DNA from: Cupriavidus sp. P-10
Lineage (GTDB): Bacteria; Pseudomonadota; Gammaproteobacteria; Burkholderiales; Burkholderiaceae
Assembly: GCF_003402535.2 (NCBI RefSeq)
Contig: NZ_AP025170.1
Location: 558,001 to 622,000, forward strand
Length of the DNA: 64,000 nucleotides
Reading direction: 5' to 3'
In this document: piece by piece, positions 52,802-55,968 of the stretch
How positions within the stretch are numbered: the stretch's first letter is position 1
Layout: each line of letters begins with the position of its first letter
Translations under genes and position numbers: made by a program
The notes under the pieces: model-generated
The model's database searches: none
What the model was told of the DNA's origin: nothing
The model's input: only the letters and a program-made list of their open reading frames with translations

Positions 52802-53422
52802 TCAGCTGCGGCGTTGCGGCAGGATCGCGTCCAGGAACGCGGTGGCGCGGAATTCCAGCTCGGCCACGTAGTCGTCCACGCGGCGGCGGAAGTAGCGCCA
52901 GAAGATCAGCGCCGGGATCGCCACGATCAGGCCGAAGGCGGTGTTGTACAGCGCCACCGAGATGCCGTGCGCCAGCTGTTCCGGATTGGCGCCGGTGCCA
53001 CCCTGGCTGCCGAAGATCTCGATCATGCCGATCACGGTGCCGAGCAGGCCCATCAGCGGCGCGACCGAGGCGATCGTGCCGAGCGCGTTCAGGTAGCGCT
53101 CCAGCTCGTGCGCAACCACGCGGCCGGCTTCCTCGACCACGTCCTTGGCGGCATCGCGCGAAGTGTGAGGCTGCAGCACCACATGGCGCAGGCCTGCGGC
53201 CAGCACCCGGCCGAGCGGCGAATTCTGTTCCAGCGTGTTGACCACTTCCGGCGTGGCCCGGCGCTGCTGCGCAGCGGCCAGCGCTTCTTCATAGAGCCGG
53301 GGCGGCAGCACCTTGCTGCGCTTGAGCGACAGGAAACGTTCGACGACCAGCGCCAGCGCGAGGACCGAGGCCAGCAACAGCGGCCAGATCGGCCAGCCGG
53401 CCGCTTGAATGATGGAAAACAA
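52802..53422 (-). CDS. exbB: ExbB/TolQ/MotA-family proton channel protein
   Basis: A 206-residue inner-membrane protein with three helices: first near the N-terminus ([20 protein letters not shown]), then the conserved pair [20 protein letters not shown] and [20 protein letters not shown]. The start used is TTG at 53422, which follows a GGGGGT ribosome site by a few bases and gives [11 protein letters not shown], the usual family start; an ATG further up (53512) would add 30 residues of other character. Partner of ExbD. Confidence 0.9.
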
Positions 53423-53620
53423 TTGGACCCCCGGGATCGACAACCCAGTAAAGAAACCCCAACCAGCTGGTCGGCATGCCTTGAGGCGCGTCAGCAGGCA
53501 GCGCTCCGGCATTGCTCTGAAAAATCAGGCGCAACTCTACCCCGCGGCCTGCCGCGCGGCAAGCGACGGCCGGGCCGGCTGTCTCGGGCGCGCATCGGCG
53601 CTGGGTGATGTCGCCGGCGG

Positions 53621-53727
53621 CTTTCCACAGGGAGCAGGGACAGTGCTGTGGATCGATTGTGGAAAGCCGCCTGACAAGCGATCCAAGTCCTTGATTCGCA
53701 AGAGGAAGCCAAGCCCTGCTTAAAAAT
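53621..53727 (+). repeat. DnaA-box/IHF unit A
   Basis: Boxes CTTTCCACA (53621), TGTGGATCG (53647) and TGTGGAAAG (53658) each have two mismatches to the DnaA consensus in one orientation. The IHF match CAA-GTCC-TTGATT is at 53684-53696 and the AT block TGCTTAAAAAT at 53717-53727. Confidence 0.65.
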
Positions 53728-53836
53728 TGTGCAGGCGGGTGCGAGGATGCCCGAGGCGCATGCCGCACACCGGTGGAAAACCCAGTTTGACGCTGCCGCG
53801 TACCGCGTCCATGCGCTGCGGCGCGGATCGGTGGGG

Positions 53837-53943
53837 TCTTCCACACTAGTGCGGGACAGCATTGTGGAGCGGTTGTGGACAGGTATCGGAGAAGGCGCCT
53901 AAGCCTTTGATTTTTAAAGCATGGTCTGTGGTTGCTTAAAAAT
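53837..53943 (+). repeat. DnaA-box/IHF unit B
   Basis: Boxes TCTTCCACA (53837), TGTGGAGCG (53863) and TGTGGACAG (53874) are weak; the IHF match TAA-GCCT-TTGATT is at 53900-53912 and TGCTTAAAAAT at 53933-53943. All offsets are the same as in unit A. Confidence 0.65.
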
Positions 53944-54008
53944 AAGGCAAACGCAGGCGGGCACGCCGCCGAAGTGGCCTGCGGCGCTCGGCATGGGTAA
54001 ACCCCGGC

Positions 54009-54115
54009 TTTTCCACACAGGGCAGGGAGAGAATTGTGGATGGCCTGTGGATAAAGTCTGGAGAGGTGGGCTAACCCATTGATTTGACAGGCGGAAAAGT
54101 TTTCTGCCTGTAAAT
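54009..54115 (+). repeat. DnaA-box/IHF unit C
   Basis: The strongest unit: TTTTCCACA (54009, one mismatch), TGTGGATGG (54035) and the perfect TGTGGATAA (54046). The IHF match TAA-CCCA-TTGATT is at 54072-54084 and the AT block TGCCTGTAAAT at 54105-54115. Confidence 0.75.
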
Positions 54116-54255
54116 TGAGCAGGGCTGTCGATACTGCCCGTTCCACATGGTGCAGTGCCGGTTCGCAGCATGGCGCGACGGCTACGCCGCTTGGCGCGTG
54201 ATGCCAGTTGCGCTTGGCGCCTTTAGCGGGCGGAAAGTCGGGTAAACACCGCGTT

Positions 54256-54351
54256 TTATCCAGAATTCCTGTGGATAACTTTGTGAACAAGCCCTGTCGG
54301 CGCCCGCTAAGTGGTTGATGCAAAAGAGAATTGGTTATATTGCCTAATTTT
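54256..54351 (+). repeat. DnaA-box/IHF unit D (11 bp shorter)
   Basis: TTATCCAGA (54256, one mismatch), perfect TGTGGATAA (54270) and TGTGAACAA (54282); the first two form the palindrome TTATCCA-N9-TGGATAA. The IHF-like TAA-GTGG-TTGATG (one mismatch) is at 54308-54320 and TGCCTAATTTT at 54341-54351, both 11 bp closer than in units A-C. Confidence 0.65.
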
Positions 54352-54498
54352 TGTTTCAATCATAAACCTCATAAAAATCAAAGGGTTGTACGAAACGATG
54401 CGGGCTGTGGGACGGGCTGGGGCCACCAACGGGACCCCCTTGACAGACCGGTTATGCTGTGGACATGTCCTATTTACGCCGCTTGCCGGACGTGATCC

Positions 54499-55884
54499 AT
54501 GCCTGACCTGCCCACCTTTTCGCGTGACGCTTCCTCCACCGGCCAGCGCAGCGGCCGTGAGGTCATTCCTGTAGGCGAGCTAAACCACACGATCGCCCGC
54601 TTGCTGGAGCGAAGCTTTCCCCTGGCCTGGGTGCGCGGCGAAATTTCCAACTTCACCCGCGCGGCCAGCGGCCACTGGTATTTTTCGCTCAAGGATGCGC
54701 GCGCCCAGATCCGCTGCGTGATGTTCCGCGGCCGCAACCAGCATGTTGACTTCCAGCCGCGCGAGGGCGAGGCGGTCGAGGTGCGCGCCGTGGTCACGAT
54801 GTACGAGGCGCGTGGCGAATTGCAGCTCGGCGTGGAGGCGATGCGCCGCGCCGGGCTGGGCAACCTGTACGAAGCTTTCCTGAGGCTGAAGGAGAAGCTG
54901 GCGCAGGCCGGCCTCTTCGACCCAGAGCGCAAGCGGCAGGTGCCGGCGCACCCGCGCACCATCGGTGTCATCACCTCGCTGCAGGCTGCCGCCTTGCGCG
55001 ATGTGCTGACCACGCTGCGCCGGCGCGCGCCGCATGTGCCGGTGGTGGTCTACCCGGTACCGGTGCAGGGTGCCGGCGCGGCACAGAAGATCGCCGACAT
55101 GATCGACCTGGCCGATGCGCGCGGCGAGTGCGAGGTGCTGATCCTGTGCCGCGGCGGGGGCAGCATCGAAGACCTGTGGTCGTTCAATGAAGAGGCGGTG
55201 GCGCACGCGATCGCGCGGTGCGCGCTGCCGCTGATTTCCGGCGTGGGGCACGAGACCGACTTCACCATTGCCGATTTCGTCGCCGACGTGCGCGCGCCCA
55301 CGCCGACCGGCGCGGCCGAACTGGTCAGCCCCGACCGCTCGCACCTGCTGGCGCAGACCCTGCGTGGCCGCGATGCGCTGGCGCAGGCGATGCGACGCAC
55401 GCTGGACTTGCGCGCCCAGCACCTGGACTGGCTGGCGCGGCGCGTGCGCAGCCCGCAGGCGCAGCTGCAGGAACGCCGCGCGCGCGTCGACAATCTGGCC
55501 CGACACTTGCGATCGGCATTGCGCGACACCGTGGTGTCGCAGCGGCATCGCCAGCAAGTGCTGGCGATGCGCTGGAGCGCCTGCCGGCCCGACACCGCCG
55601 CCGCACAGGCCGACCTGGGGCGGTTGTGGCAGCGGCTGCAGGCCGCCGCCGCGCGCCGCCACGAGCGCGCCGGCCAGCGCCTGGCGCGCGCGGCCGGTGC
55701 GCTGGAGTTGCTGGCGCCGCAGCGCACGCTCGAACGCGGCTACGCGGTGCTGCTCGACCAGCGCGGACGCGCGCTGCGCTCGCCCACTGAAATCCGCCCG
55801 GGCAGCGTGGTCGAGGCCCACCTGGCCGAGGGCGTTGCCGACCTGTCGATCGCCGGCGTGCAGCCGAAGCTGCCTGAATTCTGA
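54499..55884 (+). CDS. xseA: Exodeoxyribonuclease VII large subunit
   Basis: Catalytic subunit of the ATP-independent single-strand nuclease ExoVII. The 461-residue protein has an N-terminal OB fold ([28 protein letters not shown]), the catalytic core with [37 protein letters not shown] and [17 protein letters not shown], and a helical C-terminal region (residues about 290-400) that carries the small subunits. In most homologues ITS is followed by PTGAA or SGAA; here QAAALRD is a small variation. A TTGACA hexamer at 54440 could be a -35 element without a clear -10. xseB is not in the window. Confidence 0.96.
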
Positions 55885-55925
55885 GCGCGCGCATGTCCGC
55901 AACGAGTCCGATCCGCGCCCCGGGG

Positions 55926-55968
55926 AACGCTTGGGAAGCGCTTGGGAAGCGCTTGGGAAGCGCTTGGG
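55926..55968. repeat. 11-bp tandem repeat between xseA and sodB
   Basis: Three exact copies of AAGCGCTTGGG (55936-55968) follow a 10-bp partial copy (55926-55935). Each unit contains the palindrome AAGCGCTT. It begins 41 bp after the xseA stop. It is a likely polymorphic locus. Confidence 0.9.

Follow-up and report, generated by a model that had tools for sequence, protein, structure and literature searches.

How DnaA is reset between rounds of replication outside the E. coli group is, to our knowledge, largely an open matter, and the locus studied here raises the question of whether an array of DnaA boxes and IHF sites located away from dnaA takes part in it in a betaproteobacterium. The window, i.e., the whole 64-kb stretch of Cupriavidus sp. 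P-10 DNA that was analysed, contains this array as non-coding DNA in the exbB-xseA interval. The original prediction had placed the element at 53621-54351; it extends to 54466, with a strict IHF site beginning at 54376 and a further DnaA box at 54458. Its neighbours are an exbB-type gene of the MotA/TolQ/ExbB family (52802-53512, minus strand), the true start of which possibly lies further in, and, outside the element, xseA (54499-55884, plus strand), encoding the large subunit of exonuclease VII (41% to E. coli XseA). Beyond this gene, an 11-bp tandem repeat (GGGAAGCGCTT; 4.3 copies) was found at 55923-55968, between xseA and an ORF which we take, from reading its sequence, to be superoxide-dismutase-like.

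When 731-bp stretches were taken every 50 bp, the element proved to be the DnaA-box-richest one of the 64-kb window, featuring 13 boxes at up to two mismatches. Furthermore, the window contains four strict matches to the IHF motif (WATCAANNNNTTR), and every one of them falls within 53684-54388. The two perfect TTATCCACA boxes that had been announced are located at 54046 and 54270, both on the minus strand, while several boxes in units 1 and 2 of the four tandem units deviate by at least two mismatches. An RNA gene had been named beforehand as the alternative speaking against a DnaA-related site; the window offers no Rfam support for it, as no match was obtained at gathering thresholds in the 64 kb, and a tRNA search of the window also returned nothing.

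Units 1 to 3 start at 53621, 53837 and 54009 (spacings of 216 and 172) and follow one layout, namely, DnaA boxes at 0 (plus strand), +26 and +37 (both minus strand), a strict IHF 13-mer from +63 with TTGATT at +70, and an AT-rich TGC-N11-GCA block at +96, so that the array and the offsets of 70 and 96 were found as claimed. Unit 1 is composed of box I (CTTTCCACA, 53621-53629), box II (CGATCCACA, 53647-53655), box III (CTTTCCACA, 53658-53666), the IHF site CAAGTCCTTGATT on the plus strand (53684-53696) and an AT-rich, Fis-like dyad (53717-53733). The corresponding features of unit 2 are box I (TCTTCCACA, 53837-53845), a weak box II (53863-53871, TGTGGAGCG as read on the plus strand), box III (CTGTCCACA, 53874-53882), the plus-strand IHF site TAAGCCTTTGATT (53900-53912) and the dyad at 53933-53949. 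In unit 3, box I (TTTTCCACA, 54009-54017) and box II (CCATCCACA, 54035-54043) are followed by a perfect TTATCCACA box III (54046-54054), the plus-strand IHF site TAACCCATTGATT (54072-54084) and the dyad at 54105-54121. In unit 1, boxes I and III also belong to a perfect 14-bp inverted repeat (GGCGGCTTTCCACA; 53616-53671) with its arms 28 bases apart; the repeat finder reported no such pair for units 2 and 3. The four units themselves were invisible to the repeat finders because their spacers have diverged.

This geometry occurs three times in the 64 kb, all in the element, and a pattern built from units 1 to 3 likewise matched only the element (three matches at up to two mismatches) in the 9.08-Mb genome. 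Among 35 loci, 55 units of this type were detected in 20 loci (one genome being represented twice) of what is called here the Cupriavidus/Ralstonia group, a label coined in this analysis, and none in the 15 other Burkholderiaceae loci. Three units were present in 17 of the group's loci, two in one locus and a single unit in two copies of the same contig. Their consensus order is TCCACA, GGGACAG, two TGTGGA repeats, the IHF site, AAAGG and the dyad. Units 1 to 3 resemble unit 4 over everything from their last two boxes onwards to the right and therefore give the impression of derived copies in which box I was shifted outward by about one helical turn; as for their role, added DnaA/IHF capacity is our guess.

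Unit 4 (54256-54466) is the most important of the four units, and its difference in geometry from units 1 to 3 matters. It had been described as the same unit minus 11 bp. Its IHF-like site TAAGTGGTTGATG (54308-54320, plus strand, one mismatch), which is the counterpart of the IHF sites in units 1 to 3, indeed lies at +52, i.e., 63 minus 11. Its boxes are placed at 0 (plus), +14 (minus) and +26 (minus) rather than at 0/+26/+37. Box I (TTATCCAGA, 54256-54264) and the perfect TTATCCACA box II (54270-54278) are arranged head-to-head, followed by box III (TTGTTCACA, 54282-54290). An AT-rich block with only the TGC half of the dyad, as read from the sequence, is found at 54341-54357. The unit continues with the strict IHF site on the minus strand (54376-54388), which begins 106 bp beyond the start of box II, and with DnaA box IV (ATGTCCACA, 54458-54466, minus strand) 82 bp further on.

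To interpret this core, E. coli K-12 stretches carrying DARS1, DARS2 and datA were scanned with the same rules as the window; the places assumed for the three loci fit published site descriptions. The boxes of DARS1 (1608 plus, 1622 minus and 1634 minus in the fetched stretch) and of DARS2 (1636 plus, 1650 minus and 1662 minus) both follow the 0/+14/+26 arrangement, box I of unit 4 taking the same place as box I in either site. Over the 35 bases of the core, unit 4 is identical to DARS1 at 28 and to DARS2 at 26 positions, compared to 24 between DARS1 and DARS2. Three boxes in the order plus, minus, minus at these distances, with I and II head-to-head, define a DARS core and are present in unit 4, whereas units 1 to 3 and the second copy of the module in the same genome (see below) deviate from it. 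A pattern designed from the unit 4 core itself gave one occurrence at up to three mismatches.

The comparison of the exbB-xseA interval across relatives, proposed earlier as a check, revealed that boxes and spacing are conserved. In 12 Cupriavidus-group sequences, 118 of the 182 site columns were invariant, compared to 87 of the 699 columns in the rest of the interval (Fisher p 5e-44). Within unit 4, all nine columns of boxes II, III and IV were invariant, as were seven of nine in box I, 10 of 13 in the IHF-like site and nine of 13 in the strict IHF site. A broader set of 101 regions upstream of xseA was compiled from 80 loci found with XseA, the window and 20 loci of one family that were hand-picked from 193 genomes with a match. 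Perfect TTWTCCACA on the minus strand was detected in 64 of these regions, and around these anchors a plus-strand box was located at -14 in 41 cases and a minus-strand box at +12 in 42. Minus-strand IHF sites accumulated at distances of 103-107, with 46 hits there and 16 at all of the remaining 195 scored distances taken together. A composite test was passed by 66/101 regions, by none in each of 20 shuffles and by 2/101 after reverse complementation. Two pairs of entries are repeats (L015 and L085 represent one contig, and L088 and L089 are nearly identical); after their removal, 99 regions remained, 62 of them anchored, with the plus-strand box in 40, the minus-strand box in 41, the IHF site at 103-107 in 44 and the composite in 64.

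The composite test was failed by 35 of the 101 regions, including all 18 loci of Methylotenera, Methylophilus, Methylobacillus, Methylopumilus or Methylophilaceae. Box I varied in both collections, being recognisable in 41 of the 64 anchored regions and in 56 of the 73 modules introduced below. In the xseA rows L090, L092-L097 and L099 (genera g9, g10, g11, g13, g20 and g25), it is absent while boxes II and III and the IHF site are kept. In g9 genomes, another locus was noticed that carries the three boxes together with the IHF site at +105 (L116-L126; neighbours partly named). The single g9 xseA locus that was fetched (L096) lacks box I, so the role may have moved to this other locus.

To evaluate the prevalence of the arrangement, an open-spacing search was carried out in which box II had to be followed by a strict IHF site after any gap of 80-110, with a reversed-pattern control. 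The pair was found in 68 of the 160 genomes of the order (own genome counted) and in 69 of the 184 genomes of the class, the control yielding zero in both searches. Among the matches listed for the order, 79 of 95 had box II and the IHF site at 103-107 (peak at 105); for the class, 65 of the 83 matches from outside the own order were placed at 104-108 (peak at 106-107), three rows from two genomes of the own order having been dropped from this count. From the fetched loci, 93 modules were cut, 73 being non-redundant. A minus-strand box followed the IHF site in 66/73 of them, either at 70-74 (47 modules) or at 81-84 (19 modules) and never at both, while no distance of a plus-strand box after the IHF site recurred in the 73 modules. 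In gammaproteobacterial loci, hand-picked from 83 rows with typical spacing, such a box was present in 18 of 20, at 72-73, 82-86 or 92-94. That the box IV positions differ in steps of roughly one helical turn points to looping of the DNA by way of the IHF bend as a possibility. A full TGC-N11-GCA dyad with an AT-rich centre was located 33-36 bp before the IHF site in 18/73 modules (shuffle mean 0.7); it resembles the Fis consensus printed in the available text of PMC8682772, a likeness that serves as a lead only. These counts show that the DnaA/IHF plan of unit 4 is widespread in the class.

Subsequently, 73 beta- and 20 gammaproteobacterial modules were combined into a profile (search size 9.3 Mb). 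Applied to the E. coli loci, the profile recovered the DARS1 core with an E value of 4.5e-4 and datA around its box at 2245 with 0.011, the best shuffled or reversed control reaching 66. For DARS2, the core obtained an E value of 8.2 and another, non-core stretch 2.6. The profile of the 20 gammaproteobacterial modules alone gave 0.0011 for DARS1 and 0.67 for datA (best control 19) and missed the DARS2 core.

Within the Cupriavidus sp. P-10 genome, two strict matches only were obtained, at xseA (C1:612270) and between priA and hemE (C1:3583882), both on the contig that carries dnaA. The priA-hemE copy (C1:3583882-3584070; L130:1883-2070) comprises box II, box III, a strict IHF site at +106 and box IV 73 bp further on; box I is not recognisable, with four mismatches at its place. 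As dnaA starts contig C1, the xseA copy is located 612 kb from it in one direction and the priA-hemE copy, in the other direction, 151 kb short of the contig end, distances which assume that the 3.735-Mb contig is a closed chromosome. Regarding trans-acting factors, the genome encodes DnaA, an Hda-like ORF, IHF alpha and a distant relative of Fis, which is weak (34% over 50 aa).

The module was confirmed in 17 of 20 loci hand-picked from the 95 matches listed for the order, ten being situated beside priA and/or hemE, five beside xseA and two elsewhere; of the three loci in which it was not confirmed, one was at xseA, one lay next to dnaA and one was a contig end. Six of the 20 gammaproteobacterial loci contained priA and one uvrB, and the neighbours named in others include pepN, uup-like, dnaQ, rapA, selO and sulfate adenylyltransferase genes. 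Family scans (30 in total, 28 on module-adjacent proteins, one in both libraries) assigned no family in 2/10, 7/10 and 3/10 cases per batch. That the genes adjoining the module change with the lineage is in line with a cis element that stands on its own, and such varied neighbours argue against its being the promoter of a single gene. Multiplied forms were also encountered. In genome G055, L131:2180-3062 consists of five units in tandem, roughly 215 bp long and all with a head-to-head pair of DnaA boxes at 14 bp; the flanking stretch contains an ORF that is transposase-like by reading of its sequence, and three module cores stand in tandem at its priA-hemE locus (L132:1676-2640). The priA-hemE locus of genome G354 (L146) features three strict pattern hits, two of them passing the module rule.

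Taken as a whole, the element is probably a DARS-type, i.e., DnaA-reactivating, chromosomal control site with IHF, supplemented by lineage-specific units, and since its core matches the E. coli sites at which DnaA is recharged, it probably helps to time chromosome replication. This reading has to be weighed against several others. DnaA-like 9-mers are short and AT-rich and the boxes of units 1 and 2 are weak, which could be taken to mean that the array arose by chance or is a decaying repeat without function; considering the excess of invariant columns at the sites, the class-wide spacing peaks and the lack of any shuffled region passing the composite test, the probability of this is negligible, and for unit 4 the comparisons across relatives refute it. 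A cryptic or remnant replication origin, part of the original prediction, would also combine AT-rich stretches with DnaA boxes and IHF sites. However, dnaA lies at the contig start, 612 kb away, the region on the dnaA side has neither the 14/12 geometry nor an IHF site at up to one mismatch, and head-to-head boxes are not the arrangement of oriC as described in the available portion of PMC10380432, making such an origin very improbable. The element as oriC proper was rejected, dnaA having been located elsewhere and its adjoining region scanned, with the geometry being absent. It is also conceivable that the element represents a DnaA/IHF-controlled promoter region of xseA (and exbB), tying exonuclease VII expression to replication. 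Box IV is situated inside a TTGACA...TATGCTGTGGACATG stretch just before xseA. Conservation of this stretch extends through the Cupriavidus-group loci and, almost completely, to L016 and L017, and the composite test is passed by most xseA-upstream regions. However, the same module also occupies the priA-hemE interval, where it is directed away from priA, gammaproteobacterial modules adjoin the genes listed above from pepN to sulfate adenylyltransferase, and about 200 bp of spacing are kept whatever the gene, so that we regard a promoter role as improbable.

A datA-type site, at which IHF would bend the DNA and ATP-DnaA would gather on the boxes to both sides of it and hydrolyse its ATP (DDAH), or plain titration of DnaA, appears unlikely though conceivable. 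In the fetched datA stretch (L003), a plus-strand box at 2245, an IHF site at 2310 and a plus-strand box at 2407 were found, with starts 65 and 97 bp apart; by our own reading, the boxes at 2245 and 2407 represent boxes 2 and 3. Read on the reverse strand, the module presents box IV, the IHF site, box III and box II in one orientation, as in datA, where the IHF site is flanked by boxes at 65 and 97 bp. For the 47/73 modules with box IV at 70-74, the distances corresponding to those of datA amount to approximately 66-70 and 95-99. Furthermore, the variable box I suits a datA-type function, which needs no head-to-head pair, and the second genomic copy is just 151 kb from the end of the dnaA contig. 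In E. coli, datA is nearer to oriC than the DARS sites. On the other hand, datA has no head-to-head I/II pair at 14 bp, its profile match is confined to the surroundings of the 2245 box and does not follow the IV-IHF-III register, and box IV of the window belongs to the 82-bp class, which translates into 78 bp compared to the 65 bp of datA. datA is also found beside tRNA genes. For a shared origin of datA and the module, the profile gave no support in the register expected.

Returning to the DARS-type reading, several points count against it: box I, which E. coli DARS cannot do without, varies across the modules; 35 of the 101 regions fail the composite test; the DARS2 core is scored weakly by one profile and missed by the other; the paired IHF sites and the required Fis sites of DARS2 contrast with a single IHF site at 106 and no more than suggested Fis-like sites here; the perfect boxes could just titrate DnaA; and part of the geometry would fit datA on the other strand. 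With these in mind, the following course of events is proposed. ADP-DnaA would assemble head-to-head on boxes I and II, aided by box III, change its shape and drop ADP; the apo-DnaA would then depart and rebind ATP. IHF bound at 54376, about ten helical turns from box II, would bend the DNA and thereby bring DnaA on box IV, perhaps together with a Fis-like protein on the AT-rich dyad, back onto the core, and this fold-back would turn the core on at the right time. Units 1 to 3 would provide lineage-specific DnaA/IHF binding and may raise the capacity of the site or gate its core. Together with the priA-hemE copy, two such modules would operate on the dnaA chromosome. The searched open-licence literature, by searches that were partly loose, contained no title on betaproteobacterial sites of this kind, on the IHF spacing rule or on the tandem units. 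A fixed, checkable geometry that occurs twice on a betaproteobacterial chromosome, and also in numerous related genomes, allows the generality of DNA-driven DnaA reactivation to be tested.

The known systems resemble the element to different degrees. With bacterial oriC, it has DnaA boxes, IHF and AT-rich DNA in common, but it is not beside dnaA, and its boxes are arranged differently. According to the accessible sections of PMC10380432, head-to-head boxes I and II are characteristic of DARS and functionally essential, the boxes of oriC being head-to-tail, and this review mentions DARS-like sequences in many proteobacterial species. Of the readings originally proposed, a DARS-like locus has the best support, which applies to unit 4 through its core geometry, its sequence and the recurrence of its plan in the order and the class, and does not hold for the array as it was described, because units 1 to 3 differ. 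Synteny does not reach E. coli, since the guaB-xseA and priA-rpmE intervals of this organism lack such a box arrangement. The neighbourhoods of DARS1 (uvrB) and DARS2 (mutH) are not shared with the exbB-xseA and priA-hemE locations found here, and when class genomes were compared with the DARS1-uvrB stretch of E. coli, the matches listed covered uvrB only (best 80% identity) and none of them DARS1.

Compared to DARS2, which lies between ygdT and mutH (its core being located between rppH and ygdT in the fetched stretch), unit 4 has the same core geometry and a different IHF arrangement. DARS2 carries a plus-strand IHF site 79 bp and a minus-strand site 95 bp after box II, 3 bp apart, whereas the element lacks this pair, IBS1-2, and has one strict site at 106. 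The orientation of this site is that of the second DARS2 site, with a distance longer by about one helical turn; no box IV was found 70-86 after the second IHF site of DARS2. In those parts of PMC4245941 that were available, IBS1 and IBS2 are likewise given as 3 bp apart and FBS2-3 as needed, a displacement of IBS1-2 away from the core is reported to leave moderate activity if it amounts to 10 bp and no more than partial activity at 5 bp, and the DARS2 core is described as conserved in gammaproteobacteria related to E. coli. Counterparts of the Fis sites FBS2-3 of DARS2 are no more than suggested by the Fis-resembling TGC-N11-GCA dyads of the element, the genome's own Fis relative being weak.

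DARS1, located upstream of uvrB, is the closest relative in terms of its core, sharing both spacing and orientations with unit 4. It differs from the element in occupying another genomic place and in being without a consensus IHF site and, in the scan, without such tandem units. Nevertheless, its stretch (L001:1608-1819) features an IHF-like site with two mismatches, placed 107 bp after box II, and after another 82 bp a DnaA box with one mismatch, equalling the class-wide spacing. Such a pair occurred at eight of 46012 positions on both strands of about 25 kb of E. coli loci, DARS1 being among them; as this count was made post hoc, a relation of the degenerate pair to the module is suggestive only. 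Tentatively, and with considerable doubt, a more far-reaching history may be sketched from the sequence comparisons: an ancestral module consisting of boxes I-II-III, an IHF site at about 106 and box IV at one of two or three helical-turn positions would have spread over the class Gammaproteobacteria as GTDB defines it, frequently in the vicinity of priA or xseA. DARS1, and perhaps also DARS2 and datA, would be its eroded or split descendants, the IHF-like site and box of DARS1 being degenerate remnants, and the Cupriavidus/Ralstonia group would have added up to three DnaA/IHF units; the whole would act as an IHF-looped switch serving both directions of the DnaA nucleotide cycle. In any case, the spacing data provide an evolutionary frame in which the separate DARS1, DARS2 and datA loci of E. 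coli can be considered.
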